A stretch of 64,000 nucleotides of DNA from an uncultured Caryophanales bacterium (GTDB lineage: Bacteria > Bacillota_I > Bacilli_A > RFN20 > CAG-826), in NCBI GenBank assembly GCA_946407815.1, contig CAMJPB010000002.1:1-64000 (forward strand), in the 5' to 3' direction. Below are positions 3,475-56,333 of the stretch, piece after piece; the first letter of the stretch is position 1; every line of letters starts with the position of its first letter. A program made the position numbers and the translations under genes. The notes beneath the pieces are model-generated. The model worked only from the letters and a program-made list of their open reading frames with translations. It searched no databases and was not told the DNA's origin.

Positions 3475-4542
3475 CTATTCATTTTCCTCATCATCTGGAG
3501 GATCTATTTTATCAAGTTTATCTGTACTTAATAACTCTTCAATCTTCTTAGCATCTTCTTCAGCGATGCCGATTTTATCTTTGTATTTACTAATCATTTC
3601 AAGAGTTAATCTAGCGAAAGTCTCTTCATAATCGTTCATTAAATGGATAAAAACTAAATCCTGAACTTTGCTTATATAGTTCATAAATGGAAGAGTCACA
3701 ATAAACATCATGAATAAAGAAATAGCAATTGATTGCGAAATATTAAATTCTTTTAAGAAGAAATAACTTAAAACAATTCCACCAGCACCTGCTAAAACAA
3801 TTAATAATTGAATAAACCAGCAAGTTCTAATGTAAGTTGAAAATAAAAATTTTCTATTTTCTCTTCTTACTTGACGATCAACAAATGCGTATTGACGGAT
3901 TGGGAATGGTCTTGATGAGAAAAGATTTCTTCTCATTTTTGGTGAGTGTTTTGCGATGTGTTGAAGGAACGCTATAACTGCAAGGAACACACAAATTGTA
4001 GAGATTAAAATAAAGGCTTTTTGAAGCTCAACATTATTGTTCAAAAATGTCGTTATCTCTTCGTAAGCTGTGGCAATATCTCCAGTTGACTGCAACTTAG
4101 AAATAATCGCGTTATATTCACCATTTTTGCTTAAATAAGCAAATTCATAAATAGAAAAGATTAAAGTGTTAGATAAAGTATAAGTTAAAAGAGACTTCAA
4201 AACTCCAATTAATATGCGATATCCACCAAAGAAAAATTGGCTAAAATATGCTTTAAATAAAATGAAGAATGAAGCGTCTTCTCCATGCTTAGCACCTTTA
4301 ACTGCATTAACAGATGAAAAGGCAAAATAAGATGGAATAACAACTACTGGAATAGTAAAGATTAATGAAAATGGGGAAAGATAAGCAAGAGCAATTGAGG
4401 CAATAGTAAAAATAGCAAAATAAAACAAGTGCATTGAAAAACCATTGTGTGCTTTTTTAGTTTCAGCCCATGCACTTTTAAGCGTAATTTTGTTAGGCTC
4501 TTTCGACATTGTTTTTGTTTTCGATTGTTTTGTATTGCTCAT
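3475..4542 (-). CDS. Multi-pass membrane protein of unknown function
   Basis: The 355-residue protein has about six hydrophobic segments. The first pair lies near residues 38-80, others near 105-130 and 175-195, and the last pair near 245-300. A charged cytoplasmic tail ends in DPPDDEENE. I do not recognise the family. The start is uncertain: ATG 4542 overlaps the upstream gene by 50 bp, while an internal ATG at 4509 would shorten the overlap to 17 bp. Neither has a clear ribosome site. The overlap shows tight coupling with the upstream membrane-anchored protein, and the two may form one complex. It is the last gene of the cdaA-glmM-deoD operon. Confidence 0.7.
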   Translation of the reverse strand: MSNTKQSKTKTMSKEPNKITLKSAWAETKKAHNGFSMHLFYFAIFTIASIALAYLSPFSLIFTIPVVVIPSYFAFSSVNAVKGAKHGEDASFFILFKAYFSQFFFGGYRILIGVLKSLLTYTLSNTLIFSIYEFAYLSKNGEYNAIISKLQSTGDIATAYEEITTFLNNNVELQKAFILISTICVFLAVIAFLQHIAKHSPKMRRNLFSSRPFPIRQYAFVDRQVRRENRKFLFSTYIRTCWFIQLLIVLAGAGGIVLSYFFLKEFNISQSIAISLFMMFIVTLPFMNYISKVQDLVFIHLMNDYEETFARLTLEMISKYKDKIGIAEEDAKKIEELLSTDKLDKIDPPDDEENE

Positions 4543-5098
4543 AAATCTGTGTCTTATCTAATGATCCGATCTCCTGTTTTTCAAACTGCTTAATTTTTCT
4601 AGCAAGTGATGCGTAATGAACGATAATTTTCTTAGGATCTTCACTACTTTTTATCTTAAAATCACACTCATTTGGGATTAAACAAATTGATACGATTGGA
4701 TCGGAGGAAATTCCCAAAATCCCCGAGAAATCCCGTATATTTTTGTCAGAAAACATATTTAAATTGCTGAGATAATGCGTGGTTTTTTTAATGTTGTTAT
4801 AGTAAACCCAGGAATTATCATTTGCCTCTCCAGAAACGAAGCCCTTAAGCATAAAATCCGAGATAAGATAAATGTACTTTTTCCCGAAGATGACGTGGTT
4901 AACAAGCATCTTCTCACTTTCGTAATTACTGATGCTTAAATCAGGAATTGAAAGTAAGTCATTTCTTTTTGCAATTCTTTTAACTTTTTTTTGACAATGT
5001 TTTATAAATGTCTCTTGACTCATTCTTCTTGTCCAAATCAAAAACAAAGTGAACGCTATAATGAAAAGAACAAGTAGAATAACTAGAGCTATAAACAT
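4493..5098 (-). CDS. Membrane-anchored protein, possibly a degenerate NERD-like domain
   Basis: 201 residues: one N-terminal transmembrane helix (residues 2-23) and then a soluble domain with basic helices. The stretch VNHVIFGKKYIYLISD followed by WVYY resembles the core of NERD (nuclease-related) domains, where a hydrophobic strand precedes a Lys/Asp pair and a Trp. The match is weak and the catalytic residues are not clear, so this is a suggestion only. It starts 8 nt after the deoD stop and overlaps the next gene. A palindrome-like stretch at 4721-4744 inside the gene shares 18 bp with an intergenic site at 25151. Confidence 0.6.
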   Translation of the reverse strand: MFIALVILLVLFIIAFTLFLIWTRRMSQETFIKHCQKKVKRIAKRNDLLSIPDLSISNYESEKMLVNHVIFGKKYIYLISDFMLKGFVSGEANDNSWVYYNNIKKTTHYLSNLNMFSDKNIRDFSGILGISSDPIVSICLIPNECDFKIKSSEDPKKIIVHYASLARKIKQFEKQEIGSLDKTQIYEQYKTIENKNNVERA

Positions 5099-8115: not shown

Positions 8116-9834
8116 TTATTTAATCTTGGATAAATCAAATGATTTAAGGATTCCTTTGAGTGGTGTCATAACCTTGTGGATATTGCCATCTTCAAATGGA
8201 TTTCTAAGATGAGCTTTTCCAAGCAATGTAACGAATGGATAACGACCACCTAACTTACATAATTTCACGTATTTTTTCCAAGCTTTTTCTCTATTTCTGG
8301 TCATTTCAACTAAGAATTGGAATGCACAAACTTGGGCTAAAGTGTAATCGATGTAGTAGAAAGGAACTCCAAAGATATGGCTTTGTCTTAACCACCATCC
8401 ACCTTTTTCGCAGACTTTCATCTCTGGATCATACTTCTTGTGAGGTGTGTATCTTGACTCAATTTCTTTGTAAGCAGCACATCTTTCTTCATGTGTTGCA
8501 GTTGGGTGTTTATAGACCCAGTGTTGGAACTCATCGATTGTAATTCCATAAGGTAAGAATTCAATTGAATCTGCTAAGTGTGAATAGCGATACTTTTCAG
8601 CATCTTCCTCAAAGAATAAGTTCATCCATGGCCATGCAAAGAACTCCATAGACATTGAGTGAATTTCACAAGATTCAAGTGTTGGAGAACGGAAATCTCC
8701 AGGTTTAATATTTCTACTTAAATATCCTTGGAATGCGTGTCCCACTTCGTGGGTTAAGACATTCACGTCATGTTCTGTGCCATTGAAGTTAGCAAAAATG
8801 AATGGGAATTTTTGAATTGGGAGGAAGGTCATATAACCACCAGGTTGTTTGCCTGCTCTTGCTTCTAAATCGAGTAAGTGATGTTCTTTCATAAAACGGA
8901 AGAATTCACTGGATTCTGGTGACATTTCGTCATACATTTTTGTGGCTTCTTCAACTAAGTGTTTTGCATCGCCTTTTGGTGTTGGATTACCGCTTAAGAA
9001 TGACAAATTGTAGTCGTAAGATTTCATTTGAGAGAAAGGAATTCCGATTCTTGCAGCTTGCTCTTTGTAAAGCTTTTGGCAAATAGGAACGACTTCATCT
9101 GCGATTTGTTTACGATAGCCTTCAACCATCTTTGCATCATAGTCAACTCTACCAAGGCTTAAGTAGCCAAGTTCAGTGTAATCTTTGAAGCCGAGTTTCT
9201 TAGCAGCTTGATCACGTAAAAGTACCAATTTCCCGTAGATTTCGCCAATTTCTTGCTCTTTTTCTTGAAAGAATTTGTCGACAGAAATTGAAGCTTCACG
9301 ACGGGTTTCTCTATCCTTGGATTGAGCAAATTTACCCATTTGTGGAAGGTTATAAACTTCACCTCTAAACTCGATTTTGGCGCTTCCCATAATCTTGTCG
9401 TATTGAGATGAGAGTTTGTTGATTTCAATTAATTCAGGAATGATTTTTTCATCAAATGACTTGAGAGAATTGTCAATCATTTGGAAATAGTAAGGTGTTA
9501 ATTTCTCCTCTAATTCTTTTCTACATGGATGTTTAACAAGAACTTTATTGAACTTATTGATTTCATTAGAAATCATTGGTGAGATTTCATCTAAATGATC
9601 TTGGAGTTTTGTAATGTACTTGTCTGTGGTATTCAAAGAATAGCGAATGCTAATAACTGTGGAGTTGTTCGCAAACTTATCCATGTACTTCTCTAAAGCT
9701 TTAATAACTTTGAGTGCTTCTTTTGGATCCTTAGTTTTACTAAGCTCACTTGTAAAACCTTCTAATTTTTCGGTGATTTTATTAAGCGAAACCTTCTTTG
9801 GCTTAATATCTTCAAATTTTATATTTTTATCCAT
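8116..9834 (-). CDS. M3-family oligoendopeptidase (PepF-like)
   Basis: Zinc metallopeptidase that trims short peptides in the cytosol. The active site HEVGH lies near residue 360, followed by the downstream Glu in LESCEIHSMSME. The start at 9834 is chosen because TAGGAGGT lies 6 nt upstream; a longer frame from 9861 would begin before that site and overlap the preceding gene. This gives 572 residues, within the PepF/M3B range. No signal peptide. It is 20 nt downstream of the secreted C11 peptidase and ends an operon at a terminator. Confidence 0.92.
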   Translation of the reverse strand: MDKNIKFEDIKPKKVSLNKITEKLEGFTSELSKTKDPKEALKVIKALEKYMDKFANNSTVISIRYSLNTTDKYITKLQDHLDEISPMISNEINKFNKVLVKHPCRKELEEKLTPYYFQMIDNSLKSFDEKIIPELIEINKLSSQYDKIMGSAKIEFRGEVYNLPQMGKFAQSKDRETRREASISVDKFFQEKEQEIGEIYGKLVLLRDQAAKKLGFKDYTELGYLSLGRVDYDAKMVEGYRKQIADEVVPICQKLYKEQAARIGIPFSQMKSYDYNLSFLSGNPTPKGDAKHLVEEATKMYDEMSPESSEFFRFMKEHHLLDLEARAGKQPGGYMTFLPIQKFPFIFANFNGTEHDVNVLTHEVGHAFQGYLSRNIKPGDFRSPTLESCEIHSMSMEFFAWPWMNLFFEEDAEKYRYSHLADSIEFLPYGITIDEFQHWVYKHPTATHEERCAAYKEIESRYTPHKKYDPEMKVCEKGGWWLRQSHIFGVPFYYIDYTLAQVCAFQFLVEMTRNREKAWKKYVKLCKLGGRYPFVTLLGKAHLRNPFEDGNIHKVMTPLKGILKSFDLSKIK

Positions 9835-9854
9835 TTTCGTACCTCCTATATGGA

Positions 9855-11429
9855 TCACCAACCAAAGTCACCGTGAAGCACACACATTTGTTGCCAAACG
9901 GTAAACTTGGTAGATAAGACATTTGAATAATCCTCTTTACCAACCTGGAGAATGTATTCGTCATCCAAACATTCTGGGAAGAAAGCATTAACTCCACATG
10001 GCTTAACTGAATAATTACTACAACATTCGTTAGAAATTACTAACTCTGCTAAAGCAGATTCAACGGCACTAGTGTCATAAGTTAGTGCGTTTAATCTTGT
10101 TAATAATGATGAGAAATCACATAACCCATACATGTAATCTCCAAAGGCGTTATATGATGATTTGAATGCTGATTTTACAATTTCATAAGACAATTTTGTT
10201 GTTCCAATTTTTGTGCTTAACGAGTTAAATGCAGTTGTGAATCCACTCATTTTAGATAAGTCTAAAGCTGATAATGTTTGTAGACATGCTTCATCTGCAG
10301 GCTCTGCACTACTATGTTTATCTTTAAGATAAGCTTTACAAATTTGTGGTAAGAAATCATTAGGCGAAATCTTTGAATCAGCCTTAAGATAAGGCAAGTA
10401 AATATCGTGATTCCAACCAATAGCGTTTTCTAGTTCTTGAGATGCAACCATGTATTCAAAATAATCAGCATTAACGGAAGCAATATCAGCACATTGCATT
10501 AAGCAACAGTCATAGCCAATCCAAGTAAACTTCGACTTTGTCGAATTATCTAATGCACTCTTAGCGGCTTTAGCAACATCCTGAGTTCTTAAAGTGTAAG
10601 GGAAAACTTGATCTTTACCATAGGTATAAGTGTAGTTATCATCATAAGCGCAACCAGCAATTCCGCCACCGTGTCCAGAAATAATAACACCCATTTGGTC
10701 AGCTTCATAATCATCTAAGCCCCAGTTTAAGAACTCTTCAAAAGAAGATTCTTTTGCCATGTAGTTGCCTGGCAAAGTTTCAACGAGAGTTAACTTATTC
10801 GTTGAATTATTCACTTCCCATCTTTGTAAATTTGTGGAAGAAATCTTTGTAGCACCTTCTAAATATGAACTTGGCATCTGCCATTTCTTAGTACCACCAG
10901 TTTCAATAATAATTCTTATAGAATCAGGCATATCATGAACGCTTAAAATTTCTTGGATATCCTGTGTGAAAAAACCATGATCTTCAGGTCTTTTTGCGTC
11001 CGGATCATATTCTAAATCAGAACCACACATGTAAAACATGAGTGTGTAGTCATACTCGCCTGCTTCATCATTTGTGACTGTTAATTCCACTGTTGTTTTA
11101 ACGCTTGTGTCGGATTGTAATGAAACATAAATGAAACATTTACCTGGAGCAATGGCTCTAACTGTTCCATCAGTGCTCACAGTAGCAATAGCGGTATTTG
11201 AACTTGAGAAGTTGTAAGAAGGATTCTTAATCTCAGTATTTGATAAAACAGGATTAAGTTTCTTTTCTGTACGTTTTCTTAAATTTATCTTCATAGAAGA
11301 AACTAATTCAATTTTTGGTGGCGTAATAACAATTTGATCGTCTGGCAAAATTGGATCAAAAATACATCCAGACAAAGCGACCATTGCTGGAGCCAATAAA
11401 CCTAAAATGAATAATTTACTCTTTTTCAT
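9855..11429 (-). CDS. Secreted clostripain-family (C11) cysteine peptidase lipoprotein
   Basis: 524 residues. The signal peptide ends in a lipobox (ALSGC, Cys22). A Big_2-like immunoglobulin domain (about residues 40-120, with ATVSTDGTVRAIAPG) comes before the C11 peptidase domain. The catalytic dyad is visible as His in SGHGGG near residue 252 and Cys in YDCCLMQ near residue 307. Family members cut after Arg or Lys. The gene begins only 8 nt after the CCA end of tRNA-Gly(CCC) and has no Shine-Dalgarno site. The mRNA 5' end is therefore probably made by tRNA processing. It would be lipid-anchored on the outer face of the membrane. Confidence 0.92.
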   Translation of the reverse strand: MKKSKLFILGLLAPAMVALSGCIFDPILPDDQIVITPPKIELVSSMKINLRKRTEKKLNPVLSNTEIKNPSYNFSSSNTAIATVSTDGTVRAIAPGKCFIYVSLQSDTSVKTTVELTVTNDEAGEYDYTLMFYMCGSDLEYDPDAKRPEDHGFFTQDIQEILSVHDMPDSIRIIIETGGTKKWQMPSSYLEGATKISSTNLQRWEVNNSTNKLTLVETLPGNYMAKESSFEEFLNWGLDDYEADQMGVIISGHGGGIAGCAYDDNYTYTYGKDQVFPYTLRTQDVAKAAKSALDNSTKSKFTWIGYDCCLMQCADIASVNADYFEYMVASQELENAIGWNHDIYLPYLKADSKISPNDFLPQICKAYLKDKHSSAEPADEACLQTLSALDLSKMSGFTTAFNSLSTKIGTTKLSYEIVKSAFKSSYNAFGDYMYGLCDFSSLLTRLNALTYDTSAVESALAELVISNECCSNYSVKPCGVNAFFPECLDDEYILQVGKEDYSNVLSTKFTVWQQMCVLHGDFGW

Positions 11430-44579: not shown

Positions 44580-46067
44580 ATGTCGATGTTACGATTAGAA
44601 AACGTTTATAAAGTATTCCCAGGTCATGGTAAAAAGGCAAAAGATGTTATTGCCGTTAGTGATTTCTCTTTAGACATCAAAGATAAAGAATTTATCGTCT
44701 TTATTGGTCCTTCTGGTTGTGGTAAGTCCACCACTTTAAGAATGATCGCTGGTCTAGAAGAAAATACTAAAGGCAATATTTATATTGACGACGAACTCAT
44801 GAACGGAGTCGAACCAAAATATCGTAACATTGCAATGGTCTTCCAAAACTACGCCCTTTATCCTCATATGACAGCAAGAGAAAATATGTCATTTGGTTTA
44901 AAGAACATGAAAGTTCCTACGCCACTTCTTGATAAAGAAGGTAAACAAGTTTCAGGAATTGACCACAAGCTTATTAAGGCAATTAAGGCTGAAATTGGTA
45001 GACTAAATAAGAAAATTGAGAAACTTGAGTCAATGAAATTTGAGATTGAAGAGAACAATAAGACTCTTGAAAAATCCACAGATGAAAAAGAAAAAGAAAA
45101 CCTCAAAAATAGAAACGAAAGATTATTAAATCTTTATGATGAGAATAATTTAAATACATTTAAGGCAAAACTTGAGAAGGCCAATACTGACTTAAAGCAT
45201 TACGAAACTACTGAAGTTCCTTTATTTAAATACGCTCATCTTGATAAAGAAGTTATCGATAGCCGCGTTGAAGAAGCCGCTAAAATCTTAGACATTGAAA
45301 ACTTACTCGATAGAAAACCCAAAGCTATGAGTGGCGGCCAACGTCAAAGAGTTGCGTTAGGACGTGCTATTGTTAGAACTCCAAAAATCTTCTTACTTGA
45401 TGAACCACTTTCTAACTTAGACGCTAAACTTAGAGCACAAATGCGTGTTGAGATTATCAATCTTTACGAAAAACTTAACACTCCATTTATCTATGTTACT
45501 CACGACCAAGTTGAAGCTATGTCAATGGGTACAAGAATTGTTGTTTTACGTGAAGGTGTTATTCAACAAATCGATTCTCCAACAAATTTATATGACTATC
45601 CATCGAATAGATTTGTCGCAGGGTTTTTAGGTACTCCACAAATGAACTTCTTGGAGGTTATAATAAAGAAAGTAAGTAGTAACTTAGAAATTACTATTGA
45701 TGATAACCACAAGATCAGTGCACCACTAAAAGAACTTAGACCATTACAAGAAGAATATTTAGACGGAAATGAACATCAAGCAATATTAGGAATTCGTTCA
45801 GAAGATATTGCAATTAAAGATAAAGGCGACTTCGAAATGAAAGTCGGCGTTACTGAAGTATTAGGTAGCGAAACCTTACTTCATATGGAATCTCTTAGTG
45901 AGAATCCGTTCAAACTTGTTATTAAGTCAGCAGATCGTATTAAAGTAAGCCACAATCAAGTACTATCTGTTGATATTAATAAAACAAAGATCCATCTTTT
46001 CTCAAATGACGGAAAAGAATCTAGTATTTTCAAGAAGGAGGGACAAAACATTCATGAAAATTGCTAA
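44580..46067 (+). CDS. MsmK/UgpC-type ABC ATPase with a coiled-coil insertion
   Basis: 495 residues against about 370 normally. Walker A GPSGCGKS (43-50), Q-loop Gln89, signature SGGQ (251-254), Walker B FLLDEP (271-276), switch His308, then a MalK-type regulatory domain. Residues about 112-222, between Q-loop and signature, form an inserted Lys/Glu-rich coiled coil (LNKKIEKLESMK, EKENLKNRNERLL). Similar insertions are known in mycoplasma UgpC-like proteins. It energises the two permeases. GAGGAAG precedes the ATG; 13 bp after the ROK gene. The 3' end overlaps the next gene by 14 bp. Confidence 0.94.
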   Translation: MSMLRLENVYKVFPGHGKKAKDVIAVSDFSLDIKDKEFIVFIGPSGCGKSTTLRMIAGLEENTKGNIYIDDELMNGVEPKYRNIAMVFQNYALYPHMTARENMSFGLKNMKVPTPLLDKEGKQVSGIDHKLIKAIKAEIGRLNKKIEKLESMKFEIEENNKTLEKSTDEKEKENLKNRNERLLNLYDENNLNTFKAKLEKANTDLKHYETTEVPLFKYAHLDKEVIDSRVEEAAKILDIENLLDRKPKAMSGGQRQRVALGRAIVRTPKIFLLDEPLSNLDAKLRAQMRVEIINLYEKLNTPFIYVTHDQVEAMSMGTRIVVLREGVIQQIDSPTNLYDYPSNRFVAGFLGTPQMNFLEVIIKKVSSNLEITIDDNHKISAPLKELRPLQEEYLDGNEHQAILGIRSEDIAIKDKGDFEMKVGVTEVLGSETLLHMESLSENPFKLVIKSADRIKVSHNQVLSVDINKTKIHLFSNDGKESSIFKKEGQNIHENC

Positions 46068-49000
46068 GAAAAGAAGAGGTCTATTAGCTTCTATCGCTCT
46101 CTCGGCACTTGTTTTGACCGGCTGTACTTTTGAAGAAGGACTAGCAAGCGTTAAAGATTTCTTTGACAATAACGTTATTAGTCCTATTTCAAATTTAATT
46201 AACGGCGGCGGTGAACAAAAACCTAGTGGCGAAGACACCCCTACCCCAGACCCAGAGCCAGTAGTAAAGAAAGACGTCTCTATTACTATCGCAATGGAAG
46301 ATGGCAAACAATATAACGAAGGTGAATTTGTTGCACCAGCAGTTAGCGTTAACCCATCATCATTAACTCCTGTTATTTCTTACTATAAGGGCCAACAAGA
46401 ACTCGGATCTGAGGCACCTCAATCTGTTGGCGATTATAAGATAGTCGCAAAAACAAGTGAGACAGAAGAATACAAAGCAGGTCTTGCTTCTAAGAGTTTC
46501 TTAATTAGAAAAGTTCCTACCATTTCATTCTTCTATGGCGAAGACAATCCACTCGAAGTTGATCATCAATTTGATTTAGCAAATGGTGATTACAATATTT
46601 ATGCAAAATCATCAGTCGAGGGCGCAAACTTCACCTACTCATACTTAGACGCTCAAGGCGCACGTTTAAGCGCAAAACCACAACAAGAAGGTACATATTA
46701 CTTTGTTGCTGATGTCGCAAGAACAAGCACCATTGGTAGCGCATCCAAATCAATAAGATTTGAAGTAGTCGATTCATCATCTGGCGTTGTTACAGTCGAT
46801 CCAGTAATTAAGTTCTTCTACAAAGGTGAACAAGCATGTTTAGAATCCAATTGGCTTATTGGTGGATATGCAGCTTCACACTTTGATGCAGCAGACTTTG
46901 ATATTACTCAACTTACATATACAGTTGATCCAGCTAATGCAACATATGCTGAAACTTGGTCCTTAAAAGCCCTTGATGCTCCTGAGGAAGCAGAAGGCGA
47001 ACCAATCGCAAAACCAACAGCAAACCCACTTGCTCCTGGTATCTACGCTGTTACTATTACAGTCAGCGAAACAAAAGTTGCACATTCAGCAGTTAAATGG
47101 GCCGGATTTGTAATTAATGATAATGGCGAAACTCCACCAACACCTGGTGAAAAAGTTAAACCTACAATTACTTACTTCTACAATGGCGAAGAAGCATGTT
47201 TAGAATCCAACTGGTTAATCGGTGGCTATGCAGCTTCTCACTTTGATGCAGCTGATTTCGATATCAATAAACTTACCTATACAGTTGCTCCTCAAGGTTC
47301 ACCATATACTGAATCCTGGACACTTAAGGCATTAGACGCACCTGAAGAAGCTGAAGGTAGCCCAATTGCTAAACCAACAGCTAATCCACTTGCTCCTGGT
47401 ATCTACACCATTACCGTCAATGTCACCGAAGGTGAACACAACCTTGCTGGTTTCAGATGGGCTGGTTTCGTAATTAATGACAACGGTCAAACTCCACCAT
47501 CACCTGGTGAAAAGGTTGCACCTACAATTACTTACTTCTACAATGGCGAAGAAGCATGTTTAGAATCCAACTGGTTAAACGGTGGCTTTGCAGCTTCTCA
47601 CTTTGATGCAGCTGATTTCGATATCAATAAACTTACTTATACAGTTTCTCCAGCAGATTCTCCATATACTGAATCCTGGACACTTAAGGCACTTGATGCT
47701 CCTGAAGAAGCAGAAGGTAGCCCAATTGCAAAACCATCAAACCCACTTGCTCCTGGTATCTACACCATTACAGTTAACGTTACTGAAGGTGCACACAACC
47801 TCGAAGGCTTCAGATGGGCTGGTTTCGTAATTAATGACAACGGTCAAACTGGTCAAAAAGTTGATCCAGCAATCCGTTTCTTCTATGATGGCGAAGAAAA
47901 ATGTATCTCCGGTAGTAACTGGTTAAACGAAGGTTATGGCGATACACAATACTTACCATCTGAATTTGATATTTCCAAATTAACTTACACAGTTACTCCT
48001 GAAGCAACTGCAACAGCTTCATGGACACTTAACGATCAACCAATCGCAGCACCATCAAACCCACTCGCATCTGGTACATATGCTTTAACAATTTCTGTCG
48101 AAGCATCTGATACAGTCAATGCAGCAGTTAAATGGGCATTATTCTTCATTAAAGAAGCTCCAGCTGGTAAAGTTGATCCAGCAATCCATTTCTTCTATGA
48201 CGGCGCAGAAAAATGTATTTCTGGCACCAATTGGTTAAATGAAGGTTATGGCGATTCACAATTTGATGCATCAGAATTTGATGTAAGCAAATTAACATAC
48301 ACCGTTACACCTGAAGCAAGTGCAACAGCAACTTGGACTCTTAATGATCAACCAATCGAAGCACCATCAAACCCACTTGCAGCAGGTACATATGCTTTAA
48401 CAATTTCTGTCGAAGCAAGTGATACAGTTAACGCAGCAGTCAAATGGGCTCTCTTTGCAATCAAAGAATCAGCACCTGAAAAACAAGATCCAACAATCAA
48501 GTTTTTCTATGACGGCGCAGAAAAATGTATTTCTGGCACACGTTGGTTAAACGAAGGTTATGGCGATACACAATTCTATCCAAATGAATTTGATGTTTCA
48601 AAATTAACTTACACAGTTACTCCAGAAGCAACCGTTTCAGTCTCATGGACACTTAACGAGCAACCAATCGAAGCACCATCAAACCCACTCGCAGCAGGTA
48701 CATACGCTTTAACAGTTTCAGTCGCAGCAAGCGATACAGTTAATGCGGGTTCAGCTTATGCATTATTCGCAATTAAAGAGGCTCCAACAGCACAAGATCC
48801 TGTAATCAAGTTCTTCTATGATGGACAAGAAAAATGTATTTCTGGCACACGTTGGTTAAATGAAGGCTTTGGCGATTCACAATTTGAAGCATCCGAATTT
48901 GATGTTTCCAAATTAACTTACACAGTTTCTCCAGAAGCAACCGTTTCAGTTTCATGGACACTTGATGAAAAACCAATCGCAGCACCATCAAACCCACTTG

Positions 49001-50118
49001 CAGCAGGTACATACGCTTTAACAGTTGCAGTTGAAGCAAGTGCTACTGTCAATGCCGGTTCAGCTTATGCATTATTCGCAATTAAAGAGGCTCCAACAGC
49101 ACAAGATCCTGTAATCAAGTTCTTCTATGATGGACAAGAAAAATGTATTTCTGGCACACGTTGGTTAAATGAAGGCTTTGGCGATTCACAATTTGAAGCA
49201 TCCGAATTTGATGTTTCCAAATTAACTTACACAGTTTCTCCAGAAGCAACCGTTTCAGTTTCATGGACACTTGATGAAAAACCAATCGCAGCACCATCAA
49301 ACCCACTTGCAGCAGGTACATACGCTTTAACAGTTGCAGTTGAAGCAAGTGCTACTGTCAATGCCGGTTCAGCTTATGCATTATTCGCAATTAAAGCTCC
49401 TGCAGAAAAAGTTGATCCAACAATCCGCTTCTTCTATGATGGCGTTGAAAAATGTATTTCTGGCTCACATTGGTTAAACGAAGGTTATGGCGATTCACAA
49501 TTTGAATCATCCGAATTTGATGTTTCCAAATTAACATTCACCGTTTCTCCTCAATTAGATGCAATCGTTACTTGGACTCTTAATGATCAACCAATCGCAG
49601 CGCCATCAAACCCACTCGCAGCAGGTACATACGCTTTAACAGTTTTAGTTGATGAAGGCGAAAACAATAATCAAGCAGTTCACTGGGCATTATTTGCTAT
49701 TAAAGAATCCACGCCAGCACCATCCTATAAGGATGCAACAATGACAGCAGGAACAAACGGTTCAACATGTACAGTCAATAATATCGATGGTATTAAAGTT
49801 GGCACCAGCAAAGCTGACGGAAACATGACAATCACTGTTCCAAAAGGCGCAACTGAAGTCAAATTCTATGCAGTCGCATGGAAAGGCGGAGCAGGAAATG
49901 TTAACGTTGCAATTTCAAACGGCACCGTTTCCGCTTCTTCAATTGATTTAACAGCTGATGATGGATTATCAAACAATTCACCATTTACATTAGTAGCAAC
50001 AGACTTAGAAACTTTTGTTCAAACAGTTACTTTAAGTGGCGTTGAATCTGAAGCAACAATTACTATTTCTTCAGGTACAGCGAGAAGATTCGCAGTCTGG
50101 GGCGCACAATATAAATAA
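46054..50118 (+). CDS. Giant repeat lipoprotein of the glucan locus
   Basis: 1354 residues from ATG 46054, chosen for AAGGAGGG 11 nt upstream. Lipobox LVLTGC (Cys22). An N-terminal region (about 75-245) has Ig-like modules and is followed by nine tandem repeats (about 250-1224). A final 130-residue beta-sandwich domain follows (MTAGTNGSTCTV to FAVWGAQYK). Each repeat opens with FFYxGxExC, then W-L and a G-D-Q/ASHF stretch, and closes with NPLAxGxYALT and WALFxIK. No enzyme motif seen. A glucan-binding or adhesin role is inferred from its place at the end of the operon and its surface anchor. Confidence 0.85.
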   Translation: MKIAKKRRGLLASIALSALVLTGCTFEEGLASVKDFFDNNVISPISNLINGGGEQKPSGEDTPTPDPEPVVKKDVSITIAMEDGKQYNEGEFVAPAVSVNPSSLTPVISYYKGQQELGSEAPQSVGDYKIVAKTSETEEYKAGLASKSFLIRKVPTISFFYGEDNPLEVDHQFDLANGDYNIYAKSSVEGANFTYSYLDAQGARLSAKPQQEGTYYFVADVARTSTIGSASKSIRFEVVDSSSGVVTVDPVIKFFYKGEQACLESNWLIGGYAASHFDAADFDITQLTYTVDPANATYAETWSLKALDAPEEAEGEPIAKPTANPLAPGIYAVTITVSETKVAHSAVKWAGFVINDNGETPPTPGEKVKPTITYFYNGEEACLESNWLIGGYAASHFDAADFDINKLTYTVAPQGSPYTESWTLKALDAPEEAEGSPIAKPTANPLAPGIYTITVNVTEGEHNLAGFRWAGFVINDNGQTPPSPGEKVAPTITYFYNGEEACLESNWLNGGFAASHFDAADFDINKLTYTVSPADSPYTESWTLKALDAPEEAEGSPIAKPSNPLAPGIYTITVNVTEGAHNLEGFRWAGFVINDNGQTGQKVDPAIRFFYDGEEKCISGSNWLNEGYGDTQYLPSEFDISKLTYTVTPEATATASWTLNDQPIAAPSNPLASGTYALTISVEASDTVNAAVKWALFFIKEAPAGKVDPAIHFFYDGAEKCISGTNWLNEGYGDSQFDASEFDVSKLTYTVTPEASATATWTLNDQPIEAPSNPLAAGTYALTISVEASDTVNAAVKWALFAIKESAPEKQDPTIKFFYDGAEKCISGTRWLNEGYGDTQFYPNEFDVSKLTYTVTPEATVSVSWTLNEQPIEAPSNPLAAGTYALTVSVAASDTVNAGSAYALFAIKEAPTAQDPVIKFFYDGQEKCISGTRWLNEGFGDSQFEASEFDVSKLTYTVSPEATVSVSWTLDEKPIAAPSNPLAAGTYALTVAVEASATVNAGSAYALFAIKEAPTAQDPVIKFFYDGQEKCISGTRWLNEGFGDSQFEASEFDVSKLTYTVSPEATVSVSWTLDEKPIAAPSNPLAAGTYALTVAVEASATVNAGSAYALFAIKAPAEKVDPTIRFFYDGVEKCISGSHWLNEGYGDSQFESSEFDVSKLTFTVSPQLDAIVTWTLNDQPIAAPSNPLAAGTYALTVLVDEGENNNQAVHWALFAIKESTPAPSYKDATMTAGTNGSTCTVNNIDGIKVGTSKADGNMTITVPKGATEVKFYAVAWKGGAGNVNVAISNGTVSASSIDLTADDGLSNNSPFTLVATDLETFVQTVTLSGVESEATITISSGTARRFAVWGAQYK
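46795..49726 (+). repeat. Nine in-frame tandem repeats (3 long, 6 short)
   Basis: Unit starts (the codon after V/Q-D) are at 46801, 47161, 47521, 47866, 48178, 48490, 48799, 49108 and 49417. Spacings are 360, 360, 345, 312, 312, 309, 309 and 309 bp. Units 5 and 6 of the short type (48799 and 49108) are identical at the DNA level over the whole 309-bp period. Confidence 0.92.
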
Positions 50119-50701: not shown

Positions 50702-50800
50702 AATTCACCTCCTATCAATATTATATCAATTAAACGATATATAGCAACTAATTTAAAACCCTTATCTATTTGTCCAATAAATGGGGGTAATTTCATCAAA

Positions 50801-51029
50801 ATGGTGGACCTGAAGGGTTCCGATAATAACACGCTACCACTTTTATTTTCGGGTCAATAGAAGTCAATGTCCCGTTTTTATTTCGGTTGGATATATCACT
50901 CGCGCTTCACCAGTAATCATAAGATGAAGTCTGGAACATATTATGAAAGTAATTTGCATTAAAAATATAGGTTCTTAGATGGTTTTACCATTTTTACTCA
51001 TTTTTCAACACTTTATACAAAAAGGGGCA
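50801..51029 (-). repeat. R1: 229-bp repeat starting with a tRNA-Ala 3'-end copy (candidate attachment/recombination site)
   Basis: The first 39 bp match R2 (53082) exactly, beginning ATGGTGGACCTGA, which is the 3' end of tRNA-Ala(GGC) with its CCA. Positions 40-85 and the last ~40 bp are also similar to R2 (TTTTTACT, TTTTCAACAC, ACAAAAxxGGGxCA), while the middle ~100 bp differs although total length is equal. An inverted TGTCCCG / CGGG-CA motif frames the variable part (50868-51029). It lies 57 bp past the end of the zinc-ribbon gene. Confidence 0.7.
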
Positions 51030-51085
51030 CCACACTTCGATTACCATTATCATAAATGCAATACAAATTAATTCTTAAAATGAGA

Positions 51086-52324
51086 TTAAATGACACTCAG
51101 CATCGTAATAAATGAGAATTTTTTTAATTTGACGATGTTATTTTCAATTTTTGAGATTTTTTCATCAATATGAGATAGAGAAGATTGGACATTATCAAAT
51201 TGGTTAATAAGAGTATCAAAACCCACAACAAGTGTTTGCTGAATTATATCCAATTTGTTTGTTATAACGTCAAGTTTTTCATAAACATCTTTTCGATATT
51301 GTTGGGTGTCATAAAGATTTATCAGATCTTCCCAAGTGTTTGCTTTTCCGTCTTTTATAATATCAATTAAAGAAAGTAAAGTTTTAAGACTCCTATATTT
51401 ATAAGGCACAAAGAGTTGCTTTTCTAATTCCTTACAACAATCATTTACATCCTTGTACGCAGAACAAAGCTCATTGTAAGAGCTTTGATATTCACTCATA
51501 AGAGCTTTATGTGTTTCGATAAAGTTATAAATAACTTTAAAACAATAATCAGAATACTTTATATCTGCGTTTACTAAATCGCTCGGTGCAATGACATATT
51601 TATCGCCAAAGTACCCTGATTTCTTAACATAAAACAATCTATCAACTTCAACATCATGATTTATGTGCAAGTCTTTTGCAATCCGTGTTATTAAAATGTT
51701 CTTGCTAATACTATATTGTGTATTAAATGTTAAATAACCAGTTATTTCTTTTGTGAAAAGGTCACGATTTAAATAAAACTTTGAAATTTTCTCATACAAA
51801 TCTGGAACATTTTTCTTAACTAAAGTTTCAATATACTCACCAAGAGTTCCGTTAAAGGAATAAAATCTTTTGCAAATAGCTATACTTTCTTTAATACTAT
51901 TTTTGTAAGATTCATTTCCGTTTTCCACCTTTAAGTATGAGGATTGCGTGTTTAAATTATCCCAAGTAATTGACGATGATTTAAACTCTAAAGAATTCGC
52001 AATTAAACGCGGCATTGTTGAAAGCCAGAATTCATCAGTACCAATTAAATCAGGTTCAACATCTAACCAAGAATAGATGTCCCCAAATTTAGAGATAGCC
52101 GCTACCCACAAATATAGTGCTGATAATAGTTTGTCTTTGCCTGTAACATCAGTATTTTGTTTTTGCACAATCTCACCTTTTTTATCATCACAATTTTTGA
52201 CTTCTACTAAAAGTTTTTTTGCCTCTTCAATAGAGTATTCTGTCCCGCACTCTTGACAAACGAAAACACCATTTTCTTTTCTTATTGACTGAGACCCGCA
52301 AATTTCACAAAGCATTTTTTTCAT
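51086..52324 (-). CDS. Zinc-ribbon protein with C-terminal coiled coil (accessory, unknown)
   Basis: 412 residues. N-terminal TFIIB-like zinc ribbon (Cys6-x2-Cys9 and Cys23-x2-Cys26). A long mostly helical middle has no known motif. The C-terminal coiled coil (about 345-405, KLDVITNKLDIIQQ, LSHIDEKISKIENNIV) ends in a short hydrophobic stretch. The ATG overlaps the stop of the GIY-YIG-like gene (ATGA), so the two proteins are made together. The cassette setting and the nuclease-like partner suggest a defence or mobile-element role; this is inference. Confidence 0.75.
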   Translation of the reverse strand: MKKMLCEICGSQSIRKENGVFVCQECGTEYSIEEAKKLLVEVKNCDDKKGEIVQKQNTDVTGKDKLLSALYLWVAAISKFGDIYSWLDVEPDLIGTDEFWLSTMPRLIANSLEFKSSSITWDNLNTQSSYLKVENGNESYKNSIKESIAICKRFYSFNGTLGEYIETLVKKNVPDLYEKISKFYLNRDLFTKEITGYLTFNTQYSISKNILITRIAKDLHINHDVEVDRLFYVKKSGYFGDKYVIAPSDLVNADIKYSDYCFKVIYNFIETHKALMSEYQSSYNELCSAYKDVNDCCKELEKQLFVPYKYRSLKTLLSLIDIIKDGKANTWEDLINLYDTQQYRKDVYEKLDVITNKLDIIQQTLVVGFDTLINQFDNVQSSLSHIDEKISKIENNIVKLKKFSFITMLSVI

Positions 52325-52902
52325 AACTGCTCCCCAAAATGAAAATTATTATTATTTCCTAATATTACATCAGATTCTTGAAGCATCTTTTCAACCAAAT
52401 TAACTACAAGAGATCTATAATTTTCAAATTCTTTTTTTAACAAAAATGCTACGAGAACAAGAGAATTTCTAAATTCTTCATTATTAGCTAACCGTAAAGA
52501 TGATGAAATTCCTTTGTAATGATTATTTATACGTGTGATTATCGAATCGCCCTCAGCTTTTCCAATATAAACAATATCATCTTTGTGTACTATTCGCATA
52601 GAATTTTGATTCTTGTTTTTTGAAATACCATTTGGAATTTTGCATTCCTTAATGGCTTTGAACATATAAACTCCGTGTTTAGATTTTGCAATCTTATACA
52701 AATTCATTTTACGACTAATCTGCCCACTAAGAACTATGCAGGTTTCAAAGAAGAAGGAGCTAAAATCATAACAATTGCCTACTGAAAAGTTTGTCTTTAT
52801 AAAGGCACTAATTGCAAGACTATCGTCTTTTGCTAACGCAATTATATTTCGGAAAGAGTCTTTAATTATCTCTTTTTTCATTTTATTTTTTTGAAAATTC
52901 AT
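52321..52902 (-). CDS. GIY-YIG-like nuclease domain protein (accessory)
   Basis: 193 residues from ATG 52902; a TTG 4 codons earlier is less likely. An N-terminal helical part of ~70 residues precedes a GIY-YIG-type fold: GVY (77-79), VYIG (111-114), Arg124 with His128 in RINNH, and Glu171 or Glu175 in VEKMLQE. That is the order of catalytic residues in the superfamily. The spacing between GVY and YIG (about 32) is longer than the common ~11-20, so a diverged member. TATAAT (52929-52934, minus strand) lies upstream. Overlaps the zinc-ribbon gene by 4 bp. Confidence 0.7.
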   Translation of the reverse strand: MNFQKNKMKKEIIKDSFRNIIALAKDDSLAISAFIKTNFSVGNCYDFSSFFFETCIVLSGQISRKMNLYKIAKSKHGVYMFKAIKECKIPNGISKNKNQNSMRIVHKDDIVYIGKAEGDSIITRINNHYKGISSSLRLANNEEFRNSLVLVAFLLKKEFENYRSLVVNLVEKMLQESDVILGNNNNFHFGEQL

Positions 52903-52934
52903 AAACAAGAACAAAATCTATAGATTTAATTATA

Positions 52935-53081
52935 TAACAGAAAACAAAGTCATGAAATAAAAAGCCCTGAATTTTCAGAGCTTCATTCCTTTTTGACTGA
53001 AATTCCAGTGATTTTCGTGGTTTTTCACCTATATTTGGACCCTTTTTCCTTGTCGCCAAGGATTATGGGTAGCGGGTATTC
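52935..53081. other. Non-coding stretch between the GIY-YIG unit and R2
   Basis: It contains a weak hairpin (AAGCCCTGA/TCAGAGCTT, about 52963-52985) and CCTTG-TCG-CCAAGG (about 53048-53061). It ends in GGGTATTCATGG, which extends the tRNA-Ala 3'-flank match. No coding frame seen. Confidence 0.5.
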
Positions 53082-53310
53082 ATGGTGGACCTGAAGGGTT
53101 CCGATAATAACACGCTACCAATTTGTTAACGGGACAATACAACTCAATGTCACGTTTTTATTTCGAACTTGGCTATTGTTGGTTTTCTAGTATCACTTGC
53201 ATTTTGCCTAAAAACGCCAATGTAATCAATAAAAATTGATTAAAATCAATAATTTATGATGTTTTTGTGTTTTTTACTAGGTTTTCAACACCACTTACAA
53301 AATCGGGACA
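53082..53310 (-). repeat. R2: second 229-bp repeat starting with a tRNA-Ala 3'-end copy
   Basis: Same length and orientation as R1, with the first 39 bp identical. Together with its left flank it shares 19 bp (gtattcatggtggacctga) with the 3' end and flank of the real tRNA-Ala at 56251-56269. TGTCACG (53148) and CGGGACA (end 53310) frame a 163-bp part that differs from R1. It stands downstream of the 396-residue gene; the 163 bp between them (53311-53473) hold nothing I can name. Confidence 0.7.
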
Positions 53311-53473
53311 GTGAACTTTGCTTGACTATATCGTAGAGTTCAATTCGTTATACACAACAGAATTACGTTCCCTGTCAACACAATTAAATATAACTAGGCT
53401 TTAATAAGTATTTATTCTCAAAGATATATTTATTATCCTAAAACCCATCAAGTCATTAAAAATCTCAAATAAA

Positions 53474-54664
53474 TTATTTATTAGATTTTAAATACCCTTT
53501 TAAAAAATTGTAATTGTTGCTTCTATCATTTATATAAAATTTATCAAAATACATCTTCTCGTATGGTCCAAAGCAAAACACCATTTCAAATGCAGAAATA
53601 TCAGTACCTGTAGTGAAACCTTCTGCGCTCTCAAGCGCGCTGCCAACCGCATACATTGGATGAATAAATTCTGCCTTCAAGGCTAAATCAAAGCCGTTTA
53701 CCGGTTTGTGATATGTATATGATGAAATTGCTTTTATAAACTTAATACTTTCAATAGCATTAACTGAATAAAATAATTTTTTAAATTTTTGTACAGACGC
53801 AGTCTTTATTGAATCTATATAACTACCACATTCTTCAAGTTCTGGCCTTGAAATAAACAGCAATTTTTCCTCAGCTGATAAAAACGTTATTGATTTAACT
53901 AAATTGTCTGAATAAAGACCCATTTTACAGACAGCAATTTTTTTTAATCTACCATCATATACCAACGCCATTTTTCTTATTGGCAAGCCACTATTTAACA
54001 TTTGATCAAACCCAGAAATAAGAACTAAATTCTTTTTAAACTGATCTAGAGTACAGCCATACTCACGAATAAAATCTTTAGAGAATACTGAATTCTCTAT
54101 TTCTTCAGCATTGTGTTTTTCCTCTAAGTAATCTGTAGAGTTCTCTTTATTCGCTAGTGCATTATCAATAGCTTCTTTTATATTCTTAACTTTATTCTGC
54201 ATTTGTTCGAAATCCGAAGAATGAAATTTTAAAAATATTTTTGATGAATAATAATTCGAAGACTTCCAAGTAGCTTTGTTAAGATCATCAAAAGTCTGAT
54301 CAATAATGTTTTTAGAATTAATGTCTATTGATAAAGCGGCAAGCCCTTGCTTTAAATTTTGTGTATAAAATTGATAACTGATTTTAGATAAATCAAAAAT
54401 TTTTATCCTTTCACAAGAAGTATACAGGCTGCTTTCTCTTTTAATAATTACACAATCTTCGTAAAGATAAATGGATGTTCTTTTATCATCTCCTGGGCCT
54501 AATAAATCAGATGGGGTCACAAAAGAAACCTCAAAAATTTTTGTTTTTTCAATGCCTTTTTTCGTATATGTATTTTGTTTTTTCTTTTTTGATACAGTTA
54601 TTATTGCCATAGAAATGCAAAAACCAACTCCTATAGCACAAAAAATAATAAAAGCCACTAGCAT
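53474..54664 (-). CDS. Membrane-anchored protein of unknown function (accessory cassette gene)
   Basis: 396 residues. One N-terminal transmembrane helix (residues 2-24) and a basic KKKK stop-transfer. A cytoplasmic part follows with a PH/GRAM-like beta-rich segment (about 45-130, SIYLYEDCVIIKRESS, KIFDLSKISYQF), a charged helix (about 150-190) and a second alpha/beta part (about 200-396). No catalytic motif recognised. Codons are AT-rich like the other cassette genes. It lies between R2 and the IS3 element and reads away from tRNA-Ala. Confidence 0.7.
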   Translation of the reverse strand: MLVAFIIFCAIGVGFCISMAIITVSKKKKQNTYTKKGIEKTKIFEVSFVTPSDLLGPGDDKRTSIYLYEDCVIIKRESSLYTSCERIKIFDLSKISYQFYTQNLKQGLAALSIDINSKNIIDQTFDDLNKATWKSSNYYSSKIFLKFHSSDFEQMQNKVKNIKEAIDNALANKENSTDYLEEKHNAEEIENSVFSKDFIREYGCTLDQFKKNLVLISGFDQMLNSGLPIRKMALVYDGRLKKIAVCKMGLYSDNLVKSITFLSAEEKLLFISRPELEECGSYIDSIKTASVQKFKKLFYSVNAIESIKFIKAISSYTYHKPVNGFDLALKAEFIHPMYAVGSALESAEGFTTGTDISAFEMVFCFGPYEKMYFDKFYINDRSNNYNFLKGYLKSNK

Positions 54665-54840
54665 AGATTCGGAAATTAACTCTGTTAAATTATATCATTA
54701 TTTTCCTGAACAACAATATATCTAATTGAGAAATAATAAAAAACCCAGGATTTTCTGAGTTTTTCGTATTTTAACCATTACTGGTAGTGGGTATGATCTT
54801 GTCCCATAATTTGGACTTTTTGTCTATAAACCCGCCACCA

Positions 54841-55743
54841 TTATACATTTAAATAGAATGATTCTCTATACTTTGTAGGTGGTTTTTGAATTTTCCAAAC
54901 AAGTCGCTCATTATTGTAATAATCTATGTAACGGATTATTTCTTGCTCTACTTCTTCAAGCGAATCAAAGTCATACTCTTTAGGATAGTACATTTCTGTC
55001 TTCATCCTACCGAAGAAGTTTTCTGTAGGTGAGTTGTCTAAGCAATTTCCTTTTCTAGACATACTTTGCACCATGCCTAAATCCGTAACCATTTTTCTAT
55101 AAAGTGGATGCTGATATTGATATCCTTGATCACTATGAATGATGGCACCTAAGAGTTTGTCGCCGTGCTTTTCCTCAAGCTTTCTCATCATGCGTTTAAT
55201 CTGATGCATATCAGGATTCTTTGATAAATCAAAGGCAAGAATCTCTCTAGTGTGAAAATCAATTATTGGCGATAAATATAATTTTCCGAAAGGCGTTATA
55301 AATTGGGTTATATCAGTACCAAGTTTCTGGTATGGACCTGTTGTTCCAAAATCTCTCGCTAAAACATTTGGTGCAATTCTTCCAACATCACCATGATAGG
55401 AGTTATATTTCCTTCTTTTTGGAGTTGCCTTTATACCCATTTTAGTCATTAGTTTTTGTACTTTTTTATGATTTACATTGAAACCTCTTTTCTGAAGTTC
55501 GAGGGTAATTCTTGGCCTGCCATAATGACGATAGTTTTCTTCAAAAATCTCAAGAATTTCATGTTCCAACTCTTGATTGTCTTTTTCTTTCTTATCAAAA
55601 TGCTTGTCAGCGTAGTAATAAGTTGATTTATTTAACTTTAATATCTTTAGAAGAATATCCAGAGAATATTTTTCCCTAAATTCACGGATCAGTATTATTT
55701 TTTCTCGGATGAGCCGTTTCTCTGGAGAATTAGGGAATACCAT
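54841..55743 (-). CDS. IS3-family transposase OrfB
   Basis: 300 residues. HTH_21-like YRHYGRPRITLELQKRG, then the rve core with Asp in LGTDITQF, Asp in IIHSDQGYQYQ and Glu in DNSPTENFFGRMK. The DDE triad is intact. Overlaps orfA by 49 bp in the -1 frame. A stretch of seven A at the start of orfB is the likely slippery site for an OrfAB fusion. Confidence 0.94.
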   Translation of the reverse strand: MVFPNSPEKRLIREKIILIREFREKYSLDILLKILKLNKSTYYYADKHFDKKEKDNQELEHEILEIFEENYRHYGRPRITLELQKRGFNVNHKKVQKLMTKMGIKATPKRRKYNSYHGDVGRIAPNVLARDFGTTGPYQKLGTDITQFITPFGKLYLSPIIDFHTREILAFDLSKNPDMHQIKRMMRKLEEKHGDKLLGAIIHSDQGYQYQHPLYRKMVTDLGMVQSMSRKGNCLDNSPTENFFGRMKTEMYYPKEYDFDSLEEVEQEIIRYIDYYNNERLVWKIQKPPTKYRESFYLNV

Positions 55744-56183
55744 TTTTTTAAAACTTCGTTCTCCGCTTCAAGGTATTCATTTCGCTTTAATATCTTTTTG
55801 TGAGCTCTTAAATGATCTCGTTCATTTTTCAGTAAATATTTCTTTCTTCTAGCAGTTGTTTGTATTGCAGATTCACCTTTTGCTTTATACAAAGCAACCC
55901 ATTCAGAAACAACCTTCCTATCAGTTGAACCGAGTTCCAAGCACAACGAATATGCTGCCTCACCTGCCAGGCATCTTTTAATCATGTTAAGCTTTAACTC
56001 TCGAGTATAAGTTAATCTTTCAGCACCTTGAAATGGTTTTTCTCCATGCAGGCGGTAAAGTGAACTGTAATATTTAATTCTTGAACGATCAATATGATAC
56101 TTTTCTGACACATCTTTTATTGTCATTTTGTTATCAACATGATCTTTCGCCGCTTTTAATTTAGTTTCTAGTTTTAAAATCAT
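55695..56183 (-). CDS. IS3-family OrfA (DNA-binding subunit)
   Basis: 162 residues with two helix-turn-helix segments (KMTIKDVSEKYHIDRSRIKYY near 20-40 and ELGSTDRKVVSEWVALYKAKG near 85-103). A C-terminal leucine-zipper-like part (KRNEYLEAENEVLKKW) follows. IS150 type. It binds the element ends and is joined to OrfB by frameshifting. Confidence 0.92.
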   Translation of the reverse strand: MILKLETKLKAAKDHVDNKMTIKDVSEKYHIDRSRIKYYSSLYRLHGEKPFQGAERLTYTRELKLNMIKRCLAGEAAYSLCLELGSTDRKVVSEWVALYKAKGESAIQTTARRKKYLLKNERDHLRAHKKILKRNEYLEAENEVLKKWYSLILQRNGSSEKK

Positions 56184-56257
56184 GAAAAAAGCCCCCTAAT
56201 TTAGTCTACAAACTTTAGTTTATAGAGTCCAAATTTTGGGGACAATTTCAGTATTCA

Positions 56258-56333
56258 TGGTGGACCTGACCGGGATCGAACCGGCTACCTCCTCCATGCC
56301 ATGGAGGCGCTCTCCCAGGTGAGCTACAGGCCC
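56258..56333 (-). tRNA. tRNA-Ala (anticodon GGC), anchor of the cassette array
   Basis: 76 nt with encoded CCA. The anticodon arm CCTCC-ATGGCAT-GGAGG gives GGC. Its 3' end and flank are copied at R1 and R2. Confidence 0.94.

Follow-up and report, generated by a model that had tools for sequence, protein, structure and literature searches.

Positions 50801-56333 of a 64,000-nt window (positions 1 to 64,000 of contig CAMJPB010000002.1, assembly GCA_946407815.1) from an uncultured Caryophanales bacterium probably hold an array of two integrative gene cassettes that are non-autonomous, anchored at a tRNA-Ala(GGC) gene, and moved by a trans-acting recombinase. This reading draws on features seen directly in the window and in related genomes, namely the anatomy of the units, their targeting of the tRNA, occupied and empty sites, diverse cargo, stacking in multiple species, sharing between species, and units free of recombinase genes. 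All array features lie on the minus strand. The gene units in the window all point away from tRNA-Ala, and no integrase gene is local to the array, as had been described in an earlier note on this stretch that was made by a model from the sequence alone.

The anchor gene (56258-56333; ARAGORN and Rfam) offers its 3' end as the attachment site. The window contains exactly three copies of ATGGTGGACCTGA, all in one orientation (at 50801, 53082, and 56257), and the 19-mer GTATTCATGGTGGACCTGA is present at 53076 and at 56251; each sequence was expected 0.00 times in dinucleotide shuffles, in agreement with the earlier claim that the tRNA 3' end recurs in a single orientation. The first copy of the core (56251-56269) comprises the tRNA 3' end and the first bases of the proximal end of cassette 1, the second (53076-53094) is a tRNA 3' fragment common to the distal end of cassette 1 and the proximal end of cassette 2, and a displaced 13-bp fragment (50801-50813) marks the far end of the array. 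R1 (50802-51059) and R2 (53083-53340) run on beyond the core as a longer imperfect repeat, which is delimited by alignment with relatives as a domain of ~258 bp and matched by a covariance model in both cases. The repeat thus goes beyond a tRNA fragment and constitutes a full distal attachment domain, and the repeat reported at R2 is present but starts at 53076. Apart from the tRNA end itself, R1 and R2 are the only R-type matches in the host assembly, a metagenome-assembled genome (MAG) with an estimated completeness of 45.5%.

Cassette 1 has a size of 3175 bp, or ~1715 bp without its insertion sequence (IS) and one copy of the target site duplication (TSD), and cassette 2 has 2281 bp, which matches the sizes of about 1.7 and 2.3 kb proposed before. 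The ~1.46-kb insert beside the tRNA is an IS, as had been recognized, and is here refined to a 1457-bp IS3-type element (54794-56250; Pfam HTH_21, rve, and HTH_28) with the ends TGATCTTGTCCC.../TGAAATTGTCCC... and a 3-bp TSD (GTA). It splits the proximal end of cassette 1, and because of this interruption the tRNA and R2 have just 6 bp of 3' flank in common. Left of the IS, the tRNA flank resumes (54783-54793) and, read across the junction, gives ATACCCACTACC, the same proximal end that is found after R2. An intrinsic terminator (54738-54765) separates the tRNA from the cassette-1 gene, which encodes a 396-aa protein with a hydrophobic N-terminal stretch and no family match (53474-54664) and is followed by R2, ending in GGTAGCGTGTTATTATCGGAACCCTTCAGGTCCACCA. 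Cassette 2 begins with the proximal end TGAATACCCGCTACC (53068-53082), a hairpin ACCC...GGGT with inner CCTTG/CAAGG (53039-53070), and an intrinsic terminator (52961-52984), and carries genes for a 197-aa GIY-YIG-type protein (52321-52914; PF20815, above the Pfam cut-off) and a 412-aa protein with an N-terminal zinc-ribbon-like motif and a C-terminal coiled coil (51086-52324; Pfam matches all below cut-off). Beyond R1, a CCCCC...GGGTTTT segment (50755-50800) is probably the original 3' flank or terminator of the tRNA, displaced by the array; R is followed by similar flanks in genomes G061, G207, and G212. That the newest unit may lie next to the tRNA, as had been suggested, fits this displaced flank.

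The locus was found across the family (224 genomes, with genomes labeled by G-numbers and loci by L-numbers) via the tRNA-Pro/Arg/Ala cluster. A pattern search for the R core with three mismatches allowed had matches in 9/224 genomes and, with the pattern read backwards, zero. The covariance model (104 positions) identified 18 convincing R sites in 14 of the 224 genomes, representing seven genera (E 9e-11 to 3e-22); one further weak match in the family was left out of this count. It found no more sites in 55 genomes of the order outside the family and one doubtful match only in 395 genomes of the class, and weak matches in G002 and G464 were treated as chance. The named GenBank records that carry the motif are MAGs labeled Erysipelotrichaceae, Bacilli, or Bacillales, and RUG, RUI, and SIG isolate names suggest a rumen origin, within a family of gut and rumen bacteria. 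A tRNA-Ala (GGC or CGC) was located upstream of R, on the same contig and in the expected orientation, in 11 of the 14 carriers; wide occurrence of the repeats without tRNA-Ala, which had been named as contrary evidence, was thus not seen. Nor do related genomes carry the region unchanged. They hold different cassettes or, in the same-genus genomes G012, G003, G022, G010, G018, G007, and G013, empty tRNA-Ala(GGC) sites with an ordinary flank, often a clear terminator, directly 3' of the tRNA and neither cassette end present. In G027, the GGC site is empty and the CGC site is occupied. Integration at the host's own tRNA predicts that the tRNA-derived suffix of R tracks the host's tRNA haplotype, and the two mostly match, the suffix being CAGGTCC in the window genome, CAGATCC in G027, G061, G083, G111, and G214, and CGGATCC in G091, G205, and G207.

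Spans from the tRNA to R measure 0.9 kb (G205), 1.3 kb (G214), 1.6 kb (G091), 1.8 kb (G083), 2.0 kb (G207, G216), 2.1 kb (G061), 7.0 kb (G027), 8.4 kb (G111), and 9.0 kb (G116). The description of the cassettes as small does not always hold, since some reach ~9 kb with several genes. Cargo is unrelated between most units and includes an alpha-L-fucosidase, a helix-turn-helix regulator with a P-loop kinase-like protein, a clostripain-type protease accompanied by large surface proteins, two ABC transporters together with a methyltransferase and an ATC hydrolase-family protein, a WYL regulator, an acyltransferase, DUF559 and DUF3800 proteins, and a GIY-YIG-like protein (called by eye in G091, without a Pfam match). 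Nearly all cargo genes are directed away from the tRNA, the exceptions being an IS66-like element in G111 and one gene each in G205 and G207. No recognizable phage-derived packaging or replication genes and no conjugation genes were detected in the cargo, and PADLOC assigned none of ten cargo proteins to a known defense family. Stacks of at least two recombinase-free units recur in G209 (contig 24), G083, and G116, which sustains the earlier view of a serial array of non-autonomous cassettes; the G027 array contains decayed internal junctions. Homologous P-loop kinase-like cargo was observed in two genera (L172 in G209 contig 24 and L071 in G083; 66% protein identity, tblastx), and in G209 it adjoins an apparent toxin-antitoxin gene pair, as judged by eye.

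The unit ends are uniform. The distal domain opens right after the last gene with the conserved ACCTCTATGATAnnGGCAAGCAAAGTTTnCTGCCCCGTTTTTG, which can, as judged from its sequence, fold as a terminator, continues with a second inverted repeat, and finishes with GGTAGCGnGTTATTATCGnAACnCTTCAGRTCCACCA. The proximal end TAAATACCCGCTACC adjoins the tRNA, repeats the distal GGTAGCGGGT arm in inverted form, and is followed by a structured hairpin, (A)AUAUAG, and usually a terminator. This hairpin opens with ACC/GGU, and its further stem pairs differ between species yet stay complementary (Fisher combined chi-square 100 on 36 degrees of freedom, against shuffles). In the GGTAGCG inverted repeat, position 8 of the left arm varies with no matching change in the right arm, for which reason it looks like a protein-binding repeat rather than a hairpin. 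The inner hairpin of R has modest covariation only, and single-strand folding of the R junction beats shuffles on one strand (z -2.9) and not on the other.

A structured RNA-like segment of ~120-200 nt with a terminator at its end was additionally observed in L072 (G116; 844-1062 and 9831-10050), L040 (G027; 617-850), L055 (G076), and L201 (G131), adjoining the proximal end. It has a conserved hairpin loop AAUYCUACGGGAA and stems that vary but are complementary, and in two cases its predicted fold outperforms each of 200 shuffles (z -2.7, -3.3). No Rfam family matches the segment; it is possibly a new small RNA from the tRNA-Ala trailer. At 9831-10072 of L072, a 236-bp mini-unit has neither cargo nor distal domain; it consists solely of a proximal end followed by the RNA-like segment and by a fragment of the tRNA 3' end.

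Cassette DNA of G111 and G209 is 89.5% identical over 1512 bp and 89.0% over 765 bp, compared with 72% over 3.3 kb at their chromosomal XerD loci, and each of the two cassettes holds genes absent from the other. Further shared stretches link G211 to one G214 unit (94.5% over 1186 bp), G113 to G205 (91.7% over 545 bp), and the distal domains of G116 and G209, from two genera (81% over 282 bp). These are the strongest signs of interspecies transfer, although they do not alone prove site-specific recombination, to which the base-exact junctions at the tRNA do point. Were the tRNA-Ala flank simply a hot spot at which homologous recombination between conserved flanks swaps segments without a site-specific recombinase, the conserved distal and proximal segments could act as homology, and the mosaic cargo (G111/G209a, G212/G214b) would be explained. 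We regard this as very unlikely, given that the junctions lie exactly at the tRNA 3' CCACCA across species, that the tRNA is rebuilt every time, and that empty sites are without both conserved ends.

From these patterns we infer excision, a circular intermediate, a recombinase acting in trans, and an order of arrival. On excision, a unit would become a circle in which the distal R end is joined to the proximal CCCGCTACC end, and the joined ends would form the attachment site GGTAGCGnGTTATTATCGnAACCCTTCAGRTCCACCATAAATACCCGCTACC, an imperfect inverted repeat flanking 12-13 nt that duplicate the tRNA-Ala 3' end. Supplied in trans, a site-specific recombinase would carry out the exchange between this site and the tRNA-Ala 3' end (GGC or CGC). 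The arriving unit would rebuild the tRNA 3' end and bring a new 3' trailer, usually with a terminator, while the earlier unit and the original flank would be pushed outward, such that units stack, each ending in an R site.

Transposases of inserted IS elements aside, no recombinase open reading frame was present inside any unit. The orphan Xer-like integrase of G111, the best extra candidate, was ruled out as mover, as its family occurs in 11 genomes, a single one of which, G111, belongs to the 14 R carriers. This family of tyrosine recombinases (L113 in G111, 3820-4731; L117 in G079; 11/224 family genomes) has an in-frame TAG in 3/11 cases. The extra tyrosine recombinase of G214 sits in a type I restriction locus, those of G116 and G083 look like general transposon integrases, and the presence of serine recombinases does not track with the carriers. 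An IMG/VR match to the R core (L084) lies inside a phage coding region and was dismissed as chance.

Several observations weigh against tRNA-anchored cassettes moved in trans. On the stretches examined, G209, G212, and one G214 site were without tRNA; G197 is irregular, with ~8 kb between R and a tRNA-Ala that appears to be empty in its immediate flank; R suffix and tRNA disagree in G116 and G216; and neither an excised circle nor a same-species empty site was seen. The tyrosine recombinases of G027, G061, G091, G209, and the assembled part of G000 are XerC and XerD only (recognized by similarity, in G000 also by gene neighbors), several carriers are without serine recombinases, and the search of the carriers' recombinases did not identify the mover. 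Such absence is weak evidence because the carriers are all draft genomes, mostly incomplete MAGs, which often lose mobile helpers. That host XerC and XerD, the sole tyrosine recombinases seen in these five genomes, move the cassettes in the manner of pdif modules or dif-using integrative elements would also suit a short GGGTTA-6 nt-TAACCC inverted repeat in R. We consider this highly improbable: R1, R2, and the tRNA end are no nearer than shuffles to the Bacillota dif consensus, from which the host's own dif may differ; the target is a tRNA 3' end, of which no Xer use is known; and Xer is universal, whereas carriers are a small minority.

Alternatively, the units may be decayed leftovers, i.e., cis-mobilizable elements (CIMEs), of integrase-bearing islands or prophages at tRNA-Ala that were stacked by accretion, with no dedicated system. 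CIMEs and tandem accretion are documented (PMC5704250), the integration module is absent from 15 of 31 Dehalococcoides ssrA islands (McMurdie 2011, PMC3146451), and the decayed junctions of G027 agree with such an origin. It nevertheless appears unlikely, since the 224 family genomes, IMG/VR, and plasmid and phage records yielded no element that combines these ends with an integrase, the units are compact with uniform ends on both sides and without recognizable phage or conjugation genes, and recent interspecies transfer speaks against pure decay. Returning to cassettes moved in trans, a more specific version, which we put forward tentatively, is a dedicated, integron-convergent cassette system in which one recombinase, encoded on the chromosome or by a helper, serves all units in trans across the family. 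In such a system, and equally tentatively, each unit may carry a complete, composite attachment region that comprises the ~258-bp distal domain and the proximal end with its hairpin, whose stem is kept in structure and not in sequence.

Outside the array, just past R1, a Phd/YefM-type antitoxin gene (PF02604; 50438-50701) has no intact toxin open reading frame of at least 70 aa listed beside it. A gene for a predicted lipoprotein of 1382 aa (45970-50118) contains about nine tandem repeats of ~100-120 aa, with DNA repeats of 309-312 and 357-360 bp.

The gathering of single genes at one site by bacteria is classically exemplified by integrons. Small-genome Bacilli appear to do something similar beside a tRNA gene that is essential, while the enzyme that moves the genes resides elsewhere. 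If true, this would be a second route to modular gene capture and would account for genes that vary between strains of these bacteria next to tRNA-Ala, and the recombinase acting on the R site would become a concrete target. Owing to their precise ends, the cassettes can readily be gathered from metagenomes into a catalogue of mobile cargo of unknown function. The literature searched, which covered few subscription journals, holds no description of this system.

By architecture, the units are integrase-less tRNA gene (tDNA) islands: they share with tDNA genomic islands the regenerated tRNA at one end and the displaced 3' fragment at the other, but hold no integrase gene. Staphylococcal cassette chromosome (SCC) and pseudo-SCC arrays at rlmH are likewise serial cassettes at one 3' gene end, some of them recombinase-less; they use another target, no ccr-bearing member was found here, and our units are much smaller. 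In contrast to pdif modules and Xer-dependent elements, similarity to the dif consensus equals that of shuffles, the host lineage's own dif not having been located, and in contrast to phage satellites (phage-inducible chromosomal islands, tycheposons), the cargo is without phage-derived packaging or replication genes and viral and phage collections had no match. The layout, gene followed by recombination site in arrays of unrelated co-oriented genes without a local integrase, resembles integron cassettes and clusters of attC sites lacking integron integrases (CALINs; PMC11389934), as the earlier note had proposed. The system is, however, not an integron by the defining features tested, IntI and attI: no IntI was found, XerC and XerD being the only such enzymes in the incomplete genomes of the carriers G027, G061, G091, and G209 and in the assembled half of G000, while insertion is at the tRNA-Ala 3' end and not at attI beside intI. 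R is also longer than attC, and the cassettes are terminator-insulated, with cargo not obviously read from one promoter. By eye, no GTTRRRY core (attC R/L boxes RYYYAAC...GTTRRRY) is apparent in R. The Dehalococcoides ssrA islands also lie in tandem behind a tRNA-type gene, are bounded by its 3' fragment, carry diverse cargo without duplicate islands per strain, and are half integrase-less, but they have sister islands with a serine integrase module, for which no counterpart was found here, and a ~20-bp repeat with a short flanking motif instead of a conserved ~258-bp domain; our units are also mostly smaller. CIMEs are bounded by att sites on both sides, carry genes for neither integration nor transfer, and stack at one site (PMC5704250), but are decayed kin of known integrative conjugative or mobilizable elements, whereas no recognizable parent with the same att sites was found here and seven genera share uniform ends. 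CIMEs and the integrase-less half of the Dehalococcoides ssrA islands are thus the closest precedents, from which this system, with no integrase-bearing relative found, is set apart by its uniform ends and by units of usually one to few genes.

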